Source: Planctomycetaceae bacterium
Lineage (GTDB): Bacteria; Planctomycetota; MHYJ01; SBBU01
DNA length: 9,676 nucleotides
Reading direction: 5' to 3'
Assembly (NCBI GenBank): GCA_005239585.1
Contig: SBBU01000184.1
Location: 1-9,676, forward strand
Of this stretch, positions 81 to 9,576 are shown one piece after another. The notes beneath the pieces are model-generated. The model had not been told where the DNA came from, did no database searches, and worked only from the letters and a program-made list of their open reading frames with translations. Each line of letters begins with the position of its first letter. The first letter of the stretch is position 1. A program made the position numbers and the translations under genes.

Positions 81-977
81 GTGTTTAAGGTAGCGTCAAA
101 GGTAATGCCCATGTGTTTGGTTGTACTGCTCTTAGGTTGCGGGCAGCAAGATGTGATTGTGCTCTATGGAAGGGCAAGCAGCTCGGGCACTTATATGTAT
201 TTCAAGGAAAAGGTTCTCAAAGGGGCTTACTTTAGTCCAAAGATGCAGACCCTTCCCGGCACCGCGGCCGTGATCAATGCAGTTTCTAAAGATATAAGAT
301 CGATTGGTTTCGGTGGAATAGGGTATTCAAAGGGAGTGAGGGTTCTCTCGATAAAAAAGAATGACCAGTCTCCCGTAATAGAACCTAATCTTGAAAACGT
401 AGTGAATGGCTCCTATCCAATCAGCAGATACCTTTACTTTTACGTGGTAGATCAACCGCACGGTATAAGAGATTTTATCAACTTTGTCTTAAGTGATGAG
501 GGTCAGAAGATTTGTGTTGATGTAGGTTTTTATCCCATTCCGAAAGATAAAATCAAGTTTTTTCCAGAGGATACTAAGGCGGAAAAACCATTGCAGGTTA
601 AATCAATTCAGATCAACGGCTCAGATACAATGATAATTCTTGGTCAAAAGTGGGCGGAGTATTTTATGAAAGTAAAACACGGTATTAGTGTCTCAGTAAC
701 AGGTGGAGGTTCAGGTACTGGTATTGCGGCCCTGATAGATCGAAAAACTGATGTGTGTATGTCTTCGAGGCCAATGCATAGAGAAGAGAGAGAGTTAATT
801 AAAACGAGGCAGGGAAAAGAAGTTGTGGAAATAAGAGTTGCATTGGATGGACTTGCGATATTTGTACATGAAGCGAACCCGCTAAAGTACCTTACGCTTG
901 AGCAGCTAAATACGATTTACATGGGTAAGATCAGATCTTGGAAGGAATTAGAGGTTAATTTATTGCGCAGAGATTAG
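81..977 (+). CDS. pstS: Circularly permuted phosphate-binding lipoprotein PstS
   Basis: Periplasmic phosphate-binding component of the Pst ABC transporter. A 20-residue lipoprotein signal (Lys3 and Lys7, hydrophobic core, lipobox LLGC with Cys20) is followed by the normally C-terminal half of PstS: YGRASSSGTY (29-38, with Arg31 and the SGT phosphate loop), LPGTAAV, GYGGIGY-like 78-82, NGSYPISRYLYF and VGFYPI (148-153). A linker (about 154-171) leads into the normally N-terminal half: INGSDTM (178-184), GGGSGTGIAAL (208-218), TDVCMSSRPM (223-232) and IYMGKIRSWKEL (279-290), after which the protein ends. All ligand motifs are present, in permuted order. Length (298 aa) equals a full-length PstS. 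GTG81 is chosen because it supplies a charged signal n-region and an in-frame stop lies at 75-77; its ribosome site is poor. ATG105 or ATG111 (AAAGGT at 99-103 upstream) are alternatives but would remove the charged residues. The stop codon abuts the pstC start. Confidence 0.88.
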   Translation: MFKVASKVMPMCLVVLLLGCGQQDVIVLYGRASSSGTYMYFKEKVLKGAYFSPKMQTLPGTAAVINAVSKDIRSIGFGGIGYSKGVRVLSIKKNDQSPVIEPNLENVVNGSYPISRYLYFYVVDQPHGIRDFINFVLSDEGQKICVDVGFYPIPKDKIKFFPEDTKAEKPLQVKSIQINGSDTMIILGQKWAEYFMKVKHGISVSVTGGGSGTGIAALIDRKTDVCMSSRPMHREERELIKTRQGKEVVEIRVALDGLAIFVHEANPLKYLTLEQLNTIYMGKIRSWKELEVNLLRRD

Positions 978-2052: not shown

Positions 2053-2997
2053 ATGCCTAATGAACTAACAAGTCCAAAGGGCGGAGTGAAGGCTAAGAAA
2101 GCTATCAAGGTGATCGGGGCCTTCTTTACGTCCCTGACAGGTTTTGCCTGTATTTTAATTCTTGTCATGATTGCGATTATCATGGTGAACATTGTTATAA
2201 ACGGATTACCGGGGCTCAGTTGGGGATTTATATCGGATAAACCAAGGGATGGAATGACAAGGGGTGGAATCTTCCCGGCTATATTCGGCACAGTCGCAAT
2301 GGTTATGTTAATGACGATCATGGTTGTTCCACTAGGTGTTGCAACTGCTGTCTATCTTCATGAGTATGCTAGGCAGGATTCGAGGCTTGTCAGGATGGTT
2401 AGATTGGCTGTTCAAAATTTGGCGGGAGTTCCCTCAATTGTATATGGACTTTTTGGACTGACCTTTTTTGTTTATTTCGTGGGTTCAGGGATAGATGACT
2501 TGGTTTCTGGAGGTCAGTTAATCTATGCAAAGCCCTCTATTATATGGGCTGCGCTGACAATGGCACTCCTGACATTACCAACTGTTGTGGTTGCAACTGA
2601 AGAGGCTCTTAGGGCCGTGCCTCAGTCATACAGGGAGGCGGCATATGCACTTGGTGCAACTCGCTGGCAGGTTATCCGCCATGTGGTATTGCCGCAATCG
2701 ATCGGTGGAATCCTGACTGGAGGTATCCTTGCCGTAAGTCGTGGGACAGGGGAGGTCGCGCCTATAATGTTTACTGGCGCAGCCCTTTATCTACCCAATT
2801 TGCCCTCGATGCTGAACGACAAGTTTATGCATCTTGGATTTCACATATATGCGCTTACAAATCAGTCGCCAGATGTTGAGGCGACGAAACCTATCCTATA
2901 CTCAAGTGTCCTAGTGCTCTTGCTATTGACTCTTGCCTTAAACATCATAGCAGTTTTTATACGTTCCAAAATCAGAAGGAAATTAAGATCTATATGA
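2053..2997 (+). CDS. pstA: Phosphate ABC transporter permease PstA
   Basis: Second membrane subunit of the phosphate channel, partner of PstC. The 314-residue protein has hydrophobic segments near 28-50, 73-100, 122-144, 160-181, 214-236 and 284-303. Family landmarks are GGIFPAIFGT (71-80), LAGVPSIVYGLFGL (123-136), the EAA coupling loop starting EEALRAVPQSYREAAYALGA (183-202) followed by TRWQVIRHVVLP, and SRGTGEVAPIMFTGA (229-243), the PstA counterpart of the PstC GETM motif. The start ATG is preceded by TAGGG (2041-2045). Its stop overlaps the pstB1 start by 4 nt (ATGA), a coupled junction. The N-terminus is hydrophilic (residues 1-20) and looks complete, so the small frame upstream is not a lost piece of pstA. 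Confidence 0.95.
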   Translation: MPNELTSPKGGVKAKKAIKVIGAFFTSLTGFACILILVMIAIIMVNIVINGLPGLSWGFISDKPRDGMTRGGIFPAIFGTVAMVMLMTIMVVPLGVATAVYLHEYARQDSRLVRMVRLAVQNLAGVPSIVYGLFGLTFFVYFVGSGIDDLVSGGQLIYAKPSIIWAALTMALLTLPTVVVATEEALRAVPQSYREAAYALGATRWQVIRHVVLPQSIGGILTGGILAVSRGTGEVAPIMFTGAALYLPNLPSMLNDKFMHLGFHIYALTNQSPDVEATKPILYSSVLVLLLLTLALNIIAVFIRSKIRRKLRSI

Positions 2998-3749
2998 GAA
3001 TAAAGATAGAAACCAAGGATTTCAGTGTTCGTTACGGTGAAAAAACAGCCTTGAGTAATCTTAATCTTCAAATATTTGAAAATGAAATATTTGGGATAAT
3101 TGGTCCTGCGGGGAGCGGGAAAACAACATTCCTTCGATCACTTGACAGAATCAATGATCTTAACCCAAAATGTTCAGTGCAGGGGAAGCTTCTTTACGAC
3201 GGTATTGACATTTATGGACCTAGCGTCGATGTCTCAAGGCTCAGGAGATTGCTTGGTATGGTCTTTGCAGTTCCAACACCATTGCCCGGATCGATATACC
3301 AGAATTTGGCACTAGGGCCTGTTCTTAAGGGTAAGCATAGCCGCAGAGAGCTGGATGGTTTGGTAGAGAAGAGTCTTAAACAGGCATTTCTTTGGGATGA
3401 GGTAAAGGATAGGCTCGACAGTTCTGTTTTCGAACTCTCTGGAGGGCAGCAGCAAAGATTGTGTCTTGCACGGACCTTAGCGCTTGAACCTGATGTGTTA
3501 TTACTAGACGAACCGTGTTCAGGGCTTGACCCCATTTCAACTGCTAAGATAGAGGAGGCGCTTGTAGGACTAAAAAAGAGCTACACAGTGGTGCTTGTAA
3601 CGAATAACGTTATGCAGGCATCTCGCATCTCAGACCGCACTGCATTTTTTCTGCAGGGTGAGCTTGTTGAAATTGATGAGACAGCAAGGCTATTTACAAT
3701 GCCTGCAAATCAAAAGACTCAGGATTATATTACGGGCAGGTTTGGATAG
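2994..3749 (+). CDS. pstB: Phosphate ABC transporter ATPase PstB, paralogue 1 (altered Q- and H-loops)
   Basis: Cytoplasmic ATPase of the Pst transporter, 251 residues, the usual PstB length. Walker A is GPAGSGKT (37-44), the signature LSGGQ (148-152) is perfect, and Walker B with the catalytic glutamate is VLLLDEP (168-174, Asp172, Glu173). Two conserved catalytic-site residues are missing. The Q-loop, normally VFQ-P-P-P in PstB, reads VFAVPTPLP with Ala92 instead of Gln. The H-loop, normally VTHNMQQA, reads VTNNVMQA with Asn204 instead of the switch His. The protein otherwise keeps PstB-specific features, including the N-terminal Tyr14 next to the nucleotide site and the YITGRFG tail also found in its neighbour. 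The next gene is a second PstB with the opposite pattern of losses, so I infer that the two form a heterodimer in which this subunit gives its signature motif to the active site. Confidence 0.93.
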   Translation: MRIKIETKDFSVRYGEKTALSNLNLQIFENEIFGIIGPAGSGKTTFLRSLDRINDLNPKCSVQGKLLYDGIDIYGPSVDVSRLRRLLGMVFAVPTPLPGSIYQNLALGPVLKGKHSRRELDGLVEKSLKQAFLWDEVKDRLDSSVFELSGGQQQRLCLARTLALEPDVLLLDEPCSGLDPISTAKIEEALVGLKKSYTVVLVTNNVMQASRISDRTAFFLQGELVEIDETARLFTMPANQKTQDYITGRFG

Positions 3750-4514
3750 ATGGATACAGAAAAACCAAAAATTGCCGTAAAGGATTTGAATGCGTATTAC
3801 GGATCATTTCGTGCCTTAAAAGGCGTAAATCTCGACATTAAATCTTGTGCAATAACATCAATTATAGGTCCTTCAGGTTGTGGCAAATCAACACTCTTGC
3901 GGTGCTTCAACAGAATGAATGATAGAATAAAAAATTTCAGATTAACCGGAAGGATCATTTTTGACGGCCTGGATATTTATGATCCTATAGTGGAGCTTTC
4001 GGTTCTAAGAAAGGAAGTGGGAATGGTATTTCAAAGGCCCAACCCATTTCCGCTCTCTGTCTTTGAGAATGTCTCATATGGACCGGTTATTCATGGTGAG
4101 AGAAATAGAAACAGACTAGGTGAGATAGTAGAGAAGAGTCTTCGTGCTACGGAACTTTGGGAAGAACTAAAGGATCGTTTGCAAGAGAATGGACTCACGC
4201 TCTCGCCAGAACAGCAGCAGCGCCTGTGCATCTCTCGCCTGCTGGCAGTAGAGCCGGAAGTGCTCCTGATGGATGAACCGTGTTCAGCGCTTGATCCGAT
4301 AGCAACAATGAAAATCGAAGAGCTAATGCAGGGGCTTAAGAAAAATTACACTATAGTGATTGTTACACACAACATGCAGCAAGCATCTCGTGCATCTGAC
4401 TATTGCGGTCTAATGTGGTTAGGGGAGCTTGTAGAATTCAATGCTACGAATGAGTTTTTTACGTGCCCGCAACACAAAAAGACTGCGGATTACGTTACTG
4501 GCAGATTTGGTTAA
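3750..4514 (+). CDS. pstB: Phosphate ABC transporter ATPase PstB, paralogue 2 (degenerate signature motif)
   Basis: Second PstB-type ATPase, 254 residues. Walker A GPSGCGKS (40-47), Q-loop VFQRPNPFP with Gln95, Walker B VLLMDEP (171-177, Asp175, Glu176) and H-loop VTHNMQQA with His207 are all canonical. The ABC signature is not: the place of LSGGQ is taken by LSPEQ (151-155), with both glycines replaced, although the following QQRL is retained. The gene starts immediately after the pstB1 stop (TAGATG), and both proteins end in a shared GRFG tail, consistent with an old tandem duplication followed by divergence. Joined head-to-tail with PstB1 it would provide Walker A, Q-loop and His for one complete ATP site, whose signature comes from PstB1. 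The other site would combine PstB1 with this degenerate signature and should be weak or inactive. Confidence 0.94.
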   Translation: MDTEKPKIAVKDLNAYYGSFRALKGVNLDIKSCAITSIIGPSGCGKSTLLRCFNRMNDRIKNFRLTGRIIFDGLDIYDPIVELSVLRKEVGMVFQRPNPFPLSVFENVSYGPVIHGERNRNRLGEIVEKSLRATELWEELKDRLQENGLTLSPEQQQRLCISRLLAVEPEVLLMDEPCSALDPIATMKIEELMQGLKKNYTIVIVTHNMQQASRASDYCGLMWLGELVEFNATNEFFTCPQHKKTADYVTGRFG

Positions 4515-4566: not shown

Positions 4567-5247
4567 ATGCATCGACATTTTGACAAGGAATTGGAATCTC
4601 TCAAGATGCGCATTTTGCATATGGGCGCGTTGGCAGAGAAGATGATCGAAGAAGCAATCAAAGGGTTGGTAGAAAGACGAGATGCTGTGAAGACGGTAAC
4701 AGCACATGAGGAGGAGGTAAACACACTCCAGATACAAGTAGACGAACAGGTCGTGGAGCTTATTGCCCTCCATCACCCTGTGGCAGAAGACCTTCGTTTT
4801 CTAATCATGGCATCTAAAATTAACGGTGAGTTAGAAAGAGTCGCAGACCAAGCTATCAATATAGCTCAGAATACTGCCTTTTTGATTAAATCTTTACCCT
4901 TCAAGCTTGTGAGTGATCTTCCTATTATGGCCGATATTGCCCGCCAAATGCTTCGTCAAAGTCTTGATGCCTTTATGAAGCGGGATACTACTCTTGCCCA
5001 ACAAGTCCTTAATACGGATGACAAGGTTGACGCATTCAAGGACCGCATATTTCGCGAACTATTAACAGGCATGATGGCAGATCCTGCTTCAATTCCTCGT
5101 GCTATAGCGGTCGTCCTAATTGGCCGTAATCTTGAAAGAGTAGGTGATCATGCTACAAACATTGCTGAAGAGGTAATTTATTTGACTCAAGGTCGAGATG
5201 TACGGCATCATCACGAGGAGAAACGCAGGGGAGAAAAGACACAATAG
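4567..5247 (+). CDS. phoU: Phosphate signalling regulator PhoU
   Basis: Cytoplasmic all-helical protein that links the Pst transporter to PhoR and keeps the Pho regulon off when phosphate is plentiful. At 226 residues it is of normal length. It shows the family's two-fold repeat of three-helix bundles, each with its metal-cluster signature: GELERVADQAINIA (87-100) and RNLERVGDHATNIAEE (187-202), with Glu90/Asp94 and Glu190/Asp194 in equivalent places. The N-terminal HFDKEL followed by a long amphipathic helix is also typical. The C-terminal tail after about 210 is charged and His-rich (DVRHHHEEKRR), which is common in PhoU. A strong ribosome site precedes it. It stands between the transporter genes and phoB-phoR, the usual setting for its signalling role. 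Confidence 0.97.
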   Translation: MHRHFDKELESLKMRILHMGALAEKMIEEAIKGLVERRDAVKTVTAHEEEVNTLQIQVDEQVVELIALHHPVAEDLRFLIMASKINGELERVADQAINIAQNTAFLIKSLPFKLVSDLPIMADIARQMLRQSLDAFMKRDTTLAQQVLNTDDKVDAFKDRIFRELLTGMMADPASIPRAIAVVLIGRNLERVGDHATNIAEEVIYLTQGRDVRHHHEEKRRGEKTQ

Positions 5248-5265
5248 TGATATAGGATATTCTCA

Positions 5266-5952
5266 GTGCCAAAAACTGTTCTAGTAATCGATGATGAGCC
5301 TGATCTAATAACACTCGTAGACTATAACCTCACGCGGGAAAACTACCTGGTTATTTCTGCCAGAGATGGTGAAAATGGCCTTTCAATGGCGCGTCAACAT
5401 ATGCCTGACCTTATTATTCTGGATATCATGCTTCCCGGCATCGATGGCTGGGAGTTCTGCAAGCGTCTAAGAAATGATCCCAAGACAGCAAGAATACCGA
5501 TATTGATGCTTACTGCCAAGGCAGAGGAAGCAGATAAAATCCTGGGACTGGAACTGGGAGCAGATGATTATTTGACCAAGCCGTTTAGCGTCAGAGAACT
5601 TGCCGCACGTGCCAAGGCAATTATTAGGAGATTCGAATCGGCAACAGAGCCTGGAGAAGTGGTCAAAGTAGGATCTGTAACAATCGACGCAGGCCGCCAT
5701 GAGGTGACTCTTTCTGGAAAGAAAATTGATCTCACGACAACTGAGTTTAACATACTCAAGGCGCTTGCAGATCGCAAAGGCCGTGTAATGAGCAGAGATA
5801 GTCTGATTTCAGAGGCCAGAGGAGAAGATGTTGTTATTATAGACAGAAATATTGATGTGCATATTACAGCTCTTCGCAAAAAACTTGGCAAGTGTGGTGA
5901 ACTTCTTCAGACCGTGCGTGGTGTGGGTTATCGTTTGAGCAGCGATAAATGA
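5266..5952 (+). CDS. phoB: Phosphate regulon response regulator PhoB (OmpR family)
   Basis: DNA-binding response regulator activated by PhoR, expected to bind the repeats upstream of pstS. The receiver domain (about 1-121) has the acidic pocket Asp9, Asp10 and Glu11, the phosphoacceptor Asp53 in ILDIMLPG, Thr83 and the conserved Lys105 in LTKPF. The C-terminal winged helix (about 130-225) has TTTEFNIL, a recognition helix in the stretch IDRNIDVHITALRKKLG, and the closing hairpin TVRGVGYRL. The 228-residue length is normal. The start is GTG at 5266, preceded by AGGAT at 5254-5258. The last codons overlap the phoR start (ATGA), so regulator and kinase are coupled. The assignment as PhoB rather than another OmpR member rests on the position inside the pst-phoU operon. 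Confidence 0.95.
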   Translation: MPKTVLVIDDEPDLITLVDYNLTRENYLVISARDGENGLSMARQHMPDLIILDIMLPGIDGWEFCKRLRNDPKTARIPILMLTAKAEEADKILGLELGADDYLTKPFSVRELAARAKAIIRRFESATEPGEVVKVGSVTIDAGRHEVTLSGKKIDLTTTEFNILKALADRKGRVMSRDSLISEARGEDVVIIDRNIDVHITALRKKLGKCGELLQTVRGVGYRLSSDK

Positions 5953-7301
5953 TACGGAAGCTCTTCATAACTTATATCACAGTTGTCGTCCTTGCTCTAG
6001 CAGCCTGTGCAGTGTTACTTATACGATTAGCCAGGAATCGTAGTGAAGCAGGATCGATTTACCTTATCGTTTTTGCTATCTTGACCTTAGTTCTACTTGT
6101 AACAGCAATTGCTGGATATTTCCTCAGTCGGCATTTTCAACGTGCTATAGGAGAAATCGAGCAGACAATAAACTCCATATCACGTGCTGATTTCGAGCCT
6201 ATGGCCCCTATTAACGCAACTGGTTACATGGGAGAACTGGCAGCAGCGGTTAATCGAATGCGTGAAGAGCTTAGCAAAAAACTTGAAGATCTTACATCTG
6301 AAAAGGAAAGACTTGAATCAATGATTCGTTCCATGCGTGAGGGGGTAGTTTCTGTTGACTCGAACGGTCGAATTGTCCATGTTAACGAATCGGCTCAGTT
6401 GCTTTTGAACATCCCTTTGGACAGCAGAACAAAGCCGTTATGGGATGTGATTCGCCATGATGATGTTATCAGTGTAGTAAGGGATGTTCTTTCAATGCAA
6501 CAAGAAAGACATATAGAGGCAATTGCTGGTGCACGCTCACTTGTCGTATTCGTTACACCAATCCGTACAGGCGGAGCAGTATTGGTTGCCCATGATGTAA
6601 CTGATGCAAAGAAATACGAAGGATTAAGAAAAGAATTTGTAGCCAATGTATCTCATGAACTTCGAACACCTTTGACTTTTATCAAGGGTTATGTTGAAAC
6701 CTTGAAAGATGGAAATGTCAGGGATGAAGCCAAGACCAGAGAATTCTTAGAAACCATTGATAAAAATGTTCAACAACTTTCAAATCTCGTTGAGGACCTG
6801 CTTGAGCTCTCAAGGCTTGAATCAGGATCTGAGATGGCCAAAGTTCGTCCTGTTGGTCTCAAAGATCTGCTGCAGCGAGTTACAGATAGATATACTGTTG
6901 CGATCAACAAGAAGCGACAAGAACTGCATTTAGAATCTTCACCTGATCTATCACAGATCAATGCTGATCCTGATCTGCTCGAACGCGCGATTGGTAACTT
7001 GCTGGATAATGCTATCAAGTATACGCCGGAAAATGGTGGGATCTGGATCAGGACGAATAGCTTAGACGATGCAGTTGAAATATCTGTCTCAGATACTGGG
7101 ATTGGTATTCCTAACGAAGACCTCCCTCGCATATTCGAACGTTTTTATCGAGTTGATAAATCAAGATCCCGAGAGATGGGCGGTACAGGCTTGGGCCTTG
7201 CTATTGTCAAGCACATCGCTCAACTACACAATGGCTCAGTTGCTGTCCAGAGTACACAAGGAAAGGGCTCCACTTTTGTGTTAAAGTTGCCGGGAGGTTA
7301 G
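5949..7301 (+). CDS. phoR: Phosphate sensor histidine kinase PhoR
   Basis: Membrane histidine kinase, 450 residues. Two membrane helices (about 4-26 and 37-59) are separated by only about nine residues, so there is no extracytoplasmic sensor domain. A HAMP-like linker (about 60-113) leads to a PAS domain (about 115-215, starting LESMIRSMREGVVSVDSNGR). The dimerisation domain carries the phosphoaccepting His236 in VSHELRTPL. The ATPase domain has the N box NLLDNAIKYTP (350-360), G1 DTGIGI (382-387), the F box FERFYRVD and G2 GGTGLGLAIV (411-420). All catalytic motifs are intact. Such short-loop PhoR proteins are thought to read phosphate status from PstSCAB through PhoU, with the PAS domain as the docking site; that step is family knowledge, not visible here. 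The stop codon overlaps the stop of the opposing cstA gene. Confidence 0.95.
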   Translation: MIRKLFITYITVVVLALAACAVLLIRLARNRSEAGSIYLIVFAILTLVLLVTAIAGYFLSRHFQRAIGEIEQTINSISRADFEPMAPINATGYMGELAAAVNRMREELSKKLEDLTSEKERLESMIRSMREGVVSVDSNGRIVHVNESAQLLLNIPLDSRTKPLWDVIRHDDVISVVRDVLSMQQERHIEAIAGARSLVVFVTPIRTGGAVLVAHDVTDAKKYEGLRKEFVANVSHELRTPLTFIKGYVETLKDGNVRDEAKTREFLETIDKNVQQLSNLVEDLLELSRLESGSEMAKVRPVGLKDLLQRVTDRYTVAINKKRQELHLESSPDLSQINADPDLLERAIGNLLDNAIKYTPENGGIWIRTNSLDDAVEISVSDTGIGIPNEDLPRIFERFYRVDKSRSREMGGTGLGLAIVKHIAQLHNGSVAVQSTQGKGSTFVLKLPGG

Positions 7302-8959
7302 GGATTTGAAGGCTTGGGTTTTGGCGAATTTAGCGCTTTAAAGGCGTCAAAGCTAATCAATCCAGCCAGTGTCAGTAGAAGGGCAGCTACTGCACCATTG
7401 ATCGTGGGGGGATGAAATCCTAATGGGTTATTAAACGCGTCTATGATATGCACTGCAAGTGCCCACACAGTTATTGTCATCACAAAGAGCATCGGTAGTA
7501 TGGTAAACCAGTTCGGACGGCCAGTCTTTTTTAGCCATACAGAGATTGCCAAGAGTGTCAATGCTGCGAGTAGCTGATTTGATGTCCCGAAAAGTATCCA
7601 GTATTTCCTCCAGTCTCCGGGTTTTGATGATAGTATGAAACCTAGTGGTATGCAGACTGTGAGGGCTGTTGAAAGAATTGCAGATATCCACCCTCGTTTA
7701 ACAAACAGCTCTTGCAGCATGTATCTTCCTAAACGGGTTGCAACGTCCAGCGTGTCAAAGACAAACGTTGAAAATGCCATTGCCCCAAACGTAACGGCAA
7801 AGAGGAGATATTTTTCTCCGATTATCACAGTCAGGAACCTTCCGATGCCTTCGCCGTAAATAATACCCGGAGACTGCGACGTATTTGTTGCGATCAAAAC
7901 AGTTGAAAGAGCAATCAACGCAACAAAACCTTCAAGAAGCATGCCGCCATAGCCAATCGGCCTGCAGTGAGATTCCTTTGATATTTGTTTTGATGTTGTG
8001 CCAGAGCAGACTAGCCCGTGAAATCCGGAGCATGCCCCGCAGGCTATGGTGACAAAAAGAAATGGAAATAGTGCATCATCAAGCCGGGGACCGTCGAGTG
8101 CCTTGAATCCCGGCTGGTTGATCTGAAATCCTCCAAGAACGATGCCCACTACGCCTACTGAAAGCGCTATGTAAAGTACAAATCCGCCAAGATAACCGCG
8201 CGGCTGCAAGAGAAGCCAAACTGGGAGCAGGGACGCCGCAAAACAGTACGATAGAATCAGAATCGCCCATGTCTTGTAATCAAACAGGAACACCGTTGAA
8301 ATGCTTGTCCCCAGCCAGACAACAGCAAGAGTAGCAGGCACGAAGAAAAGTGTGATGATCAAAAGCGGAGGAGATGTTGTCCTTTGCACGAGCCCCATTA
8401 TCAGCGCTAGAGTGAGATACATTATTGCAGCTGCAGCAACTGCCCCACCCGGGTTGAATGCAAACTTGCCTTCTAGTTCCTCTGTCTTTCCAAGGAAAGT
8501 GTTTGCAGTAACATCTGTAAAAGCAATGATTACATAGAGAAGGGCGATCCATATAAATGAAATCATGGAATTATAGGCACGCCTGCCGAGGTTTTGTCTC
8601 ACGATTTCTGCTATTGATTGCGCCTTGTGTTTTATTGAAGCAGCTAGTGCTGAAAAATCATGGACAGCGCCGATAAAGATTACGCCTAGTACGATCCAGA
8701 TAATGCAGGGAATCCATCCAAAAGTCATGCATGCCGCGATCGGTCCAACTATGGGGCCTGCGGCGGCGATGGCACTAAAGTGCTGACCCAAGAGGTAAAA
8801 AGGCTTGGCGGGTACATAGTCTACACCATCATTTATTTCTTGAGCTGGGGTAGGATTGCTGTCGCTCAGCGCAAACTGACGTGCGATCCATCGGCCGTAA
8901 ATTAGATAACCTCCAAGGAGCGCTGCAATTACGATGCCAGTCAATAGGGCCAGACTCAT
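7298..8959 (-). CDS. cstA: CstA-family carbon starvation / pyruvate or peptide transporter
   Basis: Polytopic inner-membrane transporter of the CstA/BtsT family, whose characterised members take up pyruvate or peptides during carbon limitation; the substrate cannot be told from sequence. The 553-residue protein is hydrophobic almost throughout. Landmarks are GQHFSAIAAAGPIVGPIA (59-76), GWIPCIIWIVLGVIFIGAVH (81-100), CGACSGFHGLVCSGTTSKQI (307-326), GYGGMLLEGFVALIAL (336-351), FDTLDVATRLGRY (401-413) and FGTSNQLLAALTL (457-469). It is about 150 residues shorter than the E. coli proteins, which is usual for many non-enteric members. The only good start in frame is ATG at 8959. An AGGAG at 8979-8983 is 19 nt away and a weaker AGG lies closer (8964-8966). 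The stop codon overlaps that of phoR. Confidence 0.93.
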   Translation of the reverse strand: MSLALLTGIVIAALLGGYLIYGRWIARQFALSDSNPTPAQEINDGVDYVPAKPFYLLGQHFSAIAAAGPIVGPIAACMTFGWIPCIIWIVLGVIFIGAVHDFSALAASIKHKAQSIAEIVRQNLGRRAYNSMISFIWIALLYVIIAFTDVTANTFLGKTEELEGKFAFNPGGAVAAAAIMYLTLALIMGLVQRTTSPPLLIITLFFVPATLAVVWLGTSISTVFLFDYKTWAILILSYCFAASLLPVWLLLQPRGYLGGFVLYIALSVGVVGIVLGGFQINQPGFKALDGPRLDDALFPFLFVTIACGACSGFHGLVCSGTTSKQISKESHCRPIGYGGMLLEGFVALIALSTVLIATNTSQSPGIIYGEGIGRFLTVIIGEKYLLFAVTFGAMAFSTFVFDTLDVATRLGRYMLQELFVKRGWISAILSTALTVCIPLGFILSSKPGDWRKYWILFGTSNQLLAALTLLAISVWLKKTGRPNWFTILPMLFVMTITVWALAVHIIDAFNNPLGFHPPTINGAVAALLLTLAGLISFDAFKALNSPKPKPSNP

Positions 8960-9037: not shown

Positions 9038-9069
9038 AGAGATGTACAAGATTGATGTACAAGGAGGAT
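9031..9069. repeat. Three 13-bp tandem repeats, likely antitoxin operator
   Basis: GTACACTAGAGAT (9031-9043), GTACAAGATTGAT (9044-9056) and GTACAAGGAGGAT (9057-9069) are head-to-tail units of 13 bp. The last two share the 10-bp string GATGTACAAG when read with the preceding bases (9041-9050 and 9054-9063). The first unit covers the -10 box and the third contains the AAGGAGG ribosome site of the antitoxin. Each unit starts with GTACA, giving two TGTACA palindromes at 9043-9048 and 9056-9061. Type II antitoxins commonly repress their own promoter by binding repeated or palindromic sites, so this is the likely operator. Confidence 0.65.
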
Positions 9070-9073
9070 GTCT

Positions 9074-9328
9074 ATGTTAAAAATAGTTGATTCAAGTACA
9101 CTACGTAATCATCTGCGCGATGTACTTGAGGAAATCTCCAAGAAAAAAGACTATGTATTGATAATGCGCAAGTCAAAACCAATAGGTGCCATAGTGAATC
9201 TGGACTTTCTTGAGGATCTATTGGCGCTCACAAGTTCTCAGTATCTAGAAAGCATACGTCAAGCAAGGGAAGATTACAGGAAGGGTCGTAGCTACTCACA
9301 TGCTGATCTCTTTGGCAAAATTGAGTGA
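9074..9328 (+). CDS. Type II antitoxin, Phd/YefM family
   Basis: Predicted antitoxin of 84 residues that would neutralise the toxin encoded next and repress the shared promoter. The N-terminal Phd/YefM DNA-binding fold is recognisable: IVDSSTLRNHLRDVLEEI followed by KDYVLIMRKSKPIGAIVNL, with the typical strand-helix-helix-strand order and the closing 'G-IV-L-FLEDL' pattern. The C-terminal part (about 52-84) is charged and helical, as expected of the toxin-binding tail. I chose ATG at 9074 because AAGGAGG (9061-9067) touches the upstream ATG at 9068 with no spacing but lies 6 nt from 9074. The upstream choice would add only Met-Ser. The stop overlaps the toxin start (GTGA), the classical coupled arrangement. 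Confidence 0.85.
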   Translation: MLKIVDSSTLRNHLRDVLEEISKKKDYVLIMRKSKPIGAIVNLDFLEDLLALTSSQYLESIRQAREDYRKGRSYSHADLFGKIE

Positions 9329-9576
9329 AATACACCCTCGTATACACAAAAAGGGCAGTCCAAGATATAGAGGCCTTGGATAGGCTCGCAAAAAAGCGTA
9401 TCGGTAATAAAATCATTCAATTGCAAGATGATCCACTCCAGAAATCCAAAAAATTGATCAACTCCAAGATTGGGACATATAGGTTTCGCATAGGAGATTA
9501 CCGTGTTGTTTTCGATGTTGATAAGGATAGGGTTGTGATATTGCGAATTGGGCATCGTGGCGAGATCTATCGATAG
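9325..9576 (+). CDS. Type II toxin, RelE/ParE superfamily
   Basis: Small basic protein of 83 residues starting with GTG at 9325 and overlapping the antitoxin stop. The N-terminal strand MKYTLVYTKRAVQDIEAL and helix, followed by GTYRFRIGDYRVVFDVD (50-66) and ILRIGHRGEIYR (72-83), are diagnostic of the RelE side of the RelE/ParE superfamily. Candidate active-site residues of an mRNA endonuclease are Arg60, Arg74, His77, Arg78 and Tyr82. RelE-type members cleave mRNA on the ribosome, and the GHR-x-x-Y ending favours that over the gyrase-poisoning ParE type, but the sequence alone does not settle it. No truncation is visible, so the pair appears functional. Confidence 0.88.
   Translation: MKYTLVYTKRAVQDIEALDRLAKKRIGNKIIQLQDDPLQKSKKLINSKIGTYRFRIGDYRVVFDVDKDRVVILRIGHRGEIYR

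Follow-up and report, generated by a model that had tools for sequence, protein, structure and literature searches.

We report that the window, the whole stretch of 9,676 nucleotides analysed here (contig SBBU01000184.1 of assembly GCA_005239585.1, Planctomycetaceae bacterium), encodes at positions 81 to 977 of the plus strand a phosphate-binding protein PstS whose two halves stand in reverse order. An earlier note on this DNA had proposed a natural circular permutation of PstS, and the proposal was supported by homologues, operon context, a confident structure model and the solved structure 4h1x. As a joint reading, we consider it highly probable that this is a genuine natural permuted PstS acting as the receptor of a PstCAB1B2 importer, that the permutation arose once in its clade (clade A), most likely by duplication, and that the permuted PstS2 family of Streptococcus pneumoniae (clade B) was cut independently.

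Reversed halves in the window protein and its relatives

The gene starts with GTG and encodes 298 residues (288 from the ATG at 111, as in P0001, the window's own entry among the protein matches). A signal peptide with the lipobox LLGC was read from the sequence at 81 to 140 (Cys20 at 138 to 140), followed by the C-terminal half of PstS at 150 to 539 (residues 24-153; half-profile score 223.9 bits), which carries RxxxSGT, LPGTAAV and NGSYPISR. The N-terminal half came second, at 603 to 950 (residues 175-290; half-profile score 190.4 bits), with GSDTM, GGGSGTGI, SSRPM and IYMGKIRSWKEL. The gap between the half-profile matches (540 to 602, residues 154-174) corresponds to a linker between the old C and N termini, and a short new C-terminal tail, EVNLLRRD, runs to the stop codon (951 to 977), with the pstC start at the next base.

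The PstS family model TIGR02136 (NCBIfam) matched the window protein with 226.6 bits (cut-off 206.6) in two stretches, in the best of which the profile start (31-158) fell on the protein end (166-293), and Pfam PF12849 (PBP_like_2) likewise split into two stretches. The canonical PDB chain 4pqj aligned in swapped order, with its residues 149-287 on query 23-155 and 20-125 on query 177-282; the earlier note had named an alignment of both halves to one canonical PstS in normal order as its refutation, and the opposite was obtained. Half-profiles built from 24 permuted proteins each matched the window protein once only, and no direct DNA repeat of at least 16 bases was found in positions 1-1100 of the window, in agreement with the claim that nothing is duplicated or missing. 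An ordinary PstS has its N-half ahead of its C-half; the profiles, 4pqj and the half-profiles all gave the reverse order, second motif group first and first group after it, as had been described, so the window protein is a permuted PstS and not an ordinary one. The cut was found between IYMGKIRSWKEL and DVIVLYGR, in the very loop between SWKEL and VIVLYGR where it had been placed, and canonical sisters carry a loop there, e.g. GGANA. The linker had rightly been said to join the old termini; its length is 21 residues by the half-profile gap and not about 18. The permuted chain is predicted to fold into the ordinary two-lobed PstS shape with the binding motifs of both halves kept. Its start and end would lie in the loop that in canonical PstS runs from the WKEL helix into the IVxYGR strand, and the old termini would be bridged by the linker, which measures 16-22 residues across the 118 permuted proteins of the clade.

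We searched the window protein against 5.8 billion proteins. The permuted order was present in 118 among the 120 matches listed, P0001 included, and two were canonical (P0100 and P0111); the other 117 permuted matches showed 50-60% identity to the window protein over 88-98% of it. A search from the canonical sister P0111 gave, among 120 matches listed, 117 canonical proteins (P0111 included) and 3 permuted proteins already found with the window query (P0009, P0011 and P0042), to which P0111 is 75-78% identical over about 45% of its length. Canonical PstS proteins of the TIGR02136 type, among them sisters such as P0111 and the solved structures 4omb/4pqj, 4gd5 and 1twy, have the same two halves as the window protein and differ in that the halves stand in the opposite order and the chain ends lie elsewhere.

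A species-level genome scan yielded 55 loci, in which the classifiable open reading frames comprised 5 permuted and 50 canonical ones, the permuted loci coming from metagenome-assembled genomes (MAGs) labelled Terriglobia, Acidobacteria, Planctomycetota, Planctomycetales and Planctomycetia. Phylum surveys at E 1e-80, both samples of larger groups, revealed the permuted form in 3 of 392 sampled genomes in the phylum of genome G002 and in 2 of 396 in that of G001, all already known. The order of G002 comprises 1 genome and that of G003 2 genomes, the second of which showed half of the profile only, as a canonical protein would. The contigs of loci L002 and L003 measured 160 kb and 20 kb, and for three of the five MAG loci the contig is no longer than 12.1 kb, where mis-binning could have occurred. 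The search for the same motif order in related genomes that the earlier note had recommended was positive, and the case is not the singular one it had suggested, as clade A is large and a second permuted family has the same cut (PstS2, PDB 4h1x, 2012).

The patterns RxxxSGT, GS[DT][TS], [SA]SR and DG[LIV]A were each present in all 118 permuted proteins of the clade, and the stricter glycine pattern (GGGSGTG type) in 111 of them, so the motifs of both halves survive as claimed. GSD/TT, GGGSGTG and RxxxSGT, which we take to be phosphate-contact motifs, were all read in the window protein. Its variant of the last is RASSSGT, in which the acidic residue beside the Arg is lost.

Two permuted families and the origin of the cut

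Foldseek and VIA-align placed 4h1x, the S. pneumoniae PstS2 (SP_2084), far above all other structures listed. The permuted profile covered 4h1x in a single stretch (positions 18-287 on chain residues 3-264) and gave two swapped stretches on each of five canonical chains. A search with 4h1x residues 53-264 returned, among 120 matches listed, 119 permuted proteins and 1 fragment, the names given including Streptococcus, Granulicatella, Trichococcus and Bavariicoccus; plasmid records added Monoglobus pectinilyticus and Treponema saccharophilum, in both of which the gene lies ahead of pstC-pstA-pstB-phoU. The window protein resembles the PstS2 family in the swapped order, the same loop cut (between WKEL and the IVxYGR/VISRE strand), the predominance of lipoproteins and the gene position ahead of pstC (in the two PstS2-type loci read, Monoglobus and Treponema saccharophilum). 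In contrast, it is only about 25% identical to the 4h1x protein, the linker has 12-13 residues in the PstS2 family compared to 16-22 in clade A, the PstS2-type loci L074 and L075 have a single standard pstB compared to the clade A pair, and the two families hold separate places in the trees. The crystal structure 4h1x was released in 2012, and the window protein is not the first permuted PstS.

We built three PstS trees by quick searches. The first contained 39 permuted and 57 canonical representatives, with redundant rows removed at 80-82% identity, and the second the same set minus 7 long-branch rows. The joint tree, unrooted and with canonical Bacillota thinly sampled, contained 68 chosen rows (15 permuted A, 33 canonical and 20 permuted B) with the halves set in canonical order. 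In the joint tree, clades A and B sat in different canonical neighbourhoods, and in a permease tree of 25 loci two PstS2-type loci were likewise separate from clade A. Forcing all permuted proteins into one clade cost 145 log-likelihood units (approximately unbiased test, p 0.000114; quick tree, 68 chosen rows). As far as sequences can tell, this separation in both kinds of tree and this cost make two independent cuts in the same loop the better reading. The window protein has the layout of the PstS2 type; shared descent of the permutation was not found, and the window protein is not placed in the PstS2 lineage.

A single ancient permutation common to clade A and the PstS2 family, with the intervening canonical forms as reversions, would agree with the same loop being cut in both families, with both being mostly lipoproteins encoded ahead of pstC in the loci read, and with P0100, which suggests that a reversion or half-way state is possible. 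We consider this improbable, since a tree that holds the permuted proteins together suffers the 145-unit loss and since one origin would require several reversions, given that the two permuted groups have different canonical neighbours in the trees of PstS and of the permeases. Beyond two independent cuts, we tentatively raise the possibility, with more doubt than confidence, that PstS has a natural hotspot for permutation in the loop that follows the WKEL helix and precedes the IVxYGR strand. Tandem duplication of pstS would have led to two or more independent cuts there, in uncultured lineages of Acidobacteriota/Planctomycetota type and in Lactobacillales/Clostridia/Treponema, and P0100 would be a surviving N-C-N by-product.

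Within clade A, the permutation would be a single event in a canonical operon, most likely a tandem duplication of pstS after which the leading N-half and the trailing C-half were lost. The duplication origin offered in the earlier note is plausible, and its indirect support comes from one protein, P0100. This protein of 301 residues has the canonical order and groups with the permuted clade (on starred branches for the whole protein and the C-half, by nearest rows only for the N-half). Behind its C-half it carries a tail, PLDKRMKFEPTGATGQG-RWNELASDRR, that resembles a permuted linker (P0009: PGDRKAFEPTGASTPQ) and then the end of a second N-half, and no such tail was seen by eye in the other 116 canonical proteins. 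The tail scored 38 against permuted chain ends and 20 against canonical ends, and 38, 38 and 37 against permuted linkers (without shuffle control). From its sequence, P0100 appears to have the layout N-C-linker-(remnant of N) that a trimmed tandem duplicate would show, and is a possible intermediate or revertant. Two adjacent canonical pstS genes were also observed ahead of pstC-A-B on an Ilyobacter polytropus plasmid (L079, 1448-3396), and another adjacent pair in Halonatronum (L016, 6722-8780); tandem pstS genes of this sort are the kind of start that a permutation could have.

Operon context, lipid anchor and function

Directly behind pstS, on the same strand, we identified pstC (978 to 1955; TIGR02138, 256 bits, cut-off 196.45), pstA (2053 to 2997; TIGR00974, 272.1 bits, cut-off 193.45), the ATPase genes pstB1 (2994 to 3749; TIGR00972, 342.3 bits, just below the cut-off of 343.2) and pstB2 (3750 to 4514; 371.8 bits, same model and cut-off), and phoU (4567 to 5247; TIGR02135, 201.6 bits, cut-off 130.25). 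The window protein is thus encoded with PstC, PstA, PstB and PhoU, as is characteristic of PstS. Further along the plus strand lie genes for a PhoB-like response regulator (5266 to 5952; best family TIGR02154 PhoB, 240.9 bits, below the cut-off of 296.2) and a PhoR/PnpS-like sensor kinase (5949 to 7301; NF046044 PnpS 385.2 with cut-off 400 and TIGR02966 PhoR 326.1 with cut-off 334.2, both below). A CstA family (carbon starvation/pyruvate transporter) gene on the minus strand (7298-8959) converges on phoR, and a Phd/YefM-type antitoxin and ParE-type toxin pair follows on the plus strand (9068-9576).

The order pstS-pstC-pstA-pstB1-pstB2-phoU was found in the window and in the permuted loci L002-L004, and the contig of L001 stops behind pstB2. 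L005 and L052, two contigs of one MAG that overlap by 141 identical bases, jointly carry permuted pstS, pstC, pstA and both pstB. A canonical pstS heads the same gene order in L006, L007 and L009, and its halves are 53-68% identical to the halves of permuted P0002. In the tree of PstC and PstA (25 loci), the six permuted-A loci grouped in a single clade (98/94), and canonical L009, L006 and L007 branched immediately outside it, a placement indicating that pstS was probably rearranged in place, inside an existing operon.

Just 5' of pstS, at 21 to 59 of the plus strand, lies a Pho-box-like array, TTAACA-N5-TTAACA-N5-TTAATA-N5-TTTAGA, with an 11-base period. Positions 21-48 fit the pattern without mismatch; when up to 3 mismatches are allowed, 0.04 matches would be expected, for a pattern that was written after seeing the sequence. 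In the 7 further loci that were scored, L003 matched 15 of the 18 letters and L002 matched 13 (0 of 300 shuffles reached either), at 72-73 bases ahead of the assumed gene start, and canonical L009 matched 12 (6 of 300 shuffles). Scores were 10 of 18 in L004 and L005 (32 and 45 of 300 shuffles) and at background in L001 (9 of 18) and L007 (10 of 18); against the window array, no clear Pho-box-like repeats were found in L001, L004 or L005. We take repeats of this kind to be PhoB sites, and control of the permuted pstS would probably be PhoB-like.

The PstB pairs of the window, L001-L004 and L052 (permuted) and of L006, L007, L009 and L019 (canonical) were compared. PstB1 keeps LSGGQ and has lost the Q-loop Gln (GMVF then A, S or D) and, wherever read, the H-loop His (VTNN; L019 was not read there). 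PstB2 keeps the Q-loop, and the H-loop too where read, with an altered signature (LSPEQ in the window; LSAEQ, LSLEQ, LSGEA, LLPEQ or LPPEQ elsewhere). From general knowledge of ABC ATPases, we assume that the losses in PstB1 and PstB2 fall in one composite site, and the pair resembles a heterodimer in which one of the ATP sites is degenerate. The degenerate pair tracks operon type, not permutation. Enterococcus faecalis likewise has two adjacent non-identical genes, pstB1 and pstB2, in one pst operon, and by the available part of that account (PMC12096839) the window pair differs from them in that its losses are divided between PstB1 and PstB2.

The permuted PstS is most likely an ordinary phosphate receptor, and would serve the PstCAB1B2 importer encoded behind it. 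In G001, G002 and G004 it was the sole profile match at E 1e-15, a threshold that a more distant PstS could escape, in genomes that may be incomplete; in G005 a single gene split over two contigs accounts for both matches, and G003 has an extra distant canonical PstS. Binding proteins can be recruited as sensors, and with phoU, phoB and phoR nearby and the window deviating from its relatives within RxxxSGT, the permuted protein might feed the importer no longer and instead act as a phosphate sensor or scavenger or bind another oxyanion. This appears very unlikely, given that the gene heads an intact permease operon, that the main motifs are present in 118 of 118 proteins and that the protein is the sole match in the three genomes just named, at a threshold with the same proviso.

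A lipobox-like Cys was found by a simple pattern in 104 of 118 clade A proteins, 92 of 117 canonical sisters and 106 of 119 PstS2-family proteins. From what is generally known of type II folds, we assign the canonical termini to lobe 1 and the cut loop to lobe 2, from which the lipid anchor of the window protein would now hold the other lobe, lobe 2, through a tether of few residues. This might alter docking on PstC/PstA, as the earlier note had proposed. The median distance from the lipobox Cys to the fold was 7 residues in clade A, 12 in canonical sisters and 14 in the PstS2 family, and a shorter tether as the common cause of both cuts was discarded on these medians.

An assembly or binning artefact that joined two pstS pieces in the wrong order, conceivable for a window that is a single 9,676-base contig, has next to no probability, since the permuted order occurred in 117 of the 119 other matches listed, from several databases, in 5 species-level MAGs with permuted pstS ahead of pstC (in one case split over two overlapping contigs), and likewise in 119 of 120 PstS2-family matches listed, including the crystallised protein, and the misassembly foreseen as a refutation was rejected for the clade on independent contigs of up to 291 kb.

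Several points weigh against the joint reading of a permuted phosphate receptor with a duplication origin and two independent cuts. The N-half tree, which has few columns, needs 4 changes of the permuted label and not 2. P0100 is one protein, from a contig of 2,400 bases, and could be artefactual. Its tail score of 38 was reached by 14 of 500 shuffles, and the tail of canonical P0174, the best of the other long canonical tails, scores 31. The free joint tree nests P0100 in clade A, and holding clade A alone together came out 11 units better (p 0.709), so that P0100 as an intermediate and P0100 as a revertant are indistinguishable. At 171-191 the window reads RASSSGT, where the residues after the Arg are E, N and N in at least 90% of the alignment. 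Phosphate binding and transport in clade A are what we infer from sequence, and the putative lobe assignment draws on general type II fold knowledge and the strand order in models.

Precedents and significance

Descriptions of transporter receptors that are circularly permuted in nature seem to be rare, and we found one precedent, TpMglB-2 (Tp0684) of Treponema pallidum. The available part of its description (PMC4990184) presents it as 'Type Ic', a type marked by a fourth hinge crossing. This tethered binding protein of an ABC importer is circularly permuted in nature and retains ligand binding, and its authors raise tethering as a possible reason for the permutation. By that description, the window PstS is likewise a naturally permuted, tethered binding protein of an ABC importer, and TpMglB-2 differs from it in being a glucose-binding protein of type I fold and another family, permuted elsewhere in the N lobe. 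In a literature search that covered subscription literature thinly, no text called clade A or the PstS2 family permuted. S. pneumoniae Pst2 is implicated in phosphate uptake, which a pst1 pst2 double deletion lowers (PMC4913102), and the available part of that text has 0 occurrences of the word stem 'permut'. PDB entry 9l8j, whose title refers to an 'evolutionary hotspot' in a phosphate-binding protein from Synechocystis, could be prior art; its paper was not found.

With TIGR02136, two PstS2-type proteins scored 179 and 189, under the cut-off of 206.6, and three clade A proteins passed with 223-229. Among the names listed, many in the PstS2 family are just 'substrate-binding domain-containing protein', and the JGI names listed read 'ABC-type phosphate transport system...' for clade A and 'phosphate transport system...' for canonical sisters and the PstS2 family. 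Because of the low scores and vague names of the PstS2 type, annotation may be affected, and a survey that counts PstS through names or full-length matches may overlook some of the permuted proteins.

The most interesting result is that the same cut recurs and that a possible intermediate accompanies it. Two lineages appear to reach the same permutation and have canonical relatives in operons of the same type, and these near-matched permuted and canonical pairs allow one to ask how chain order and anchor position bear on receptor docking.
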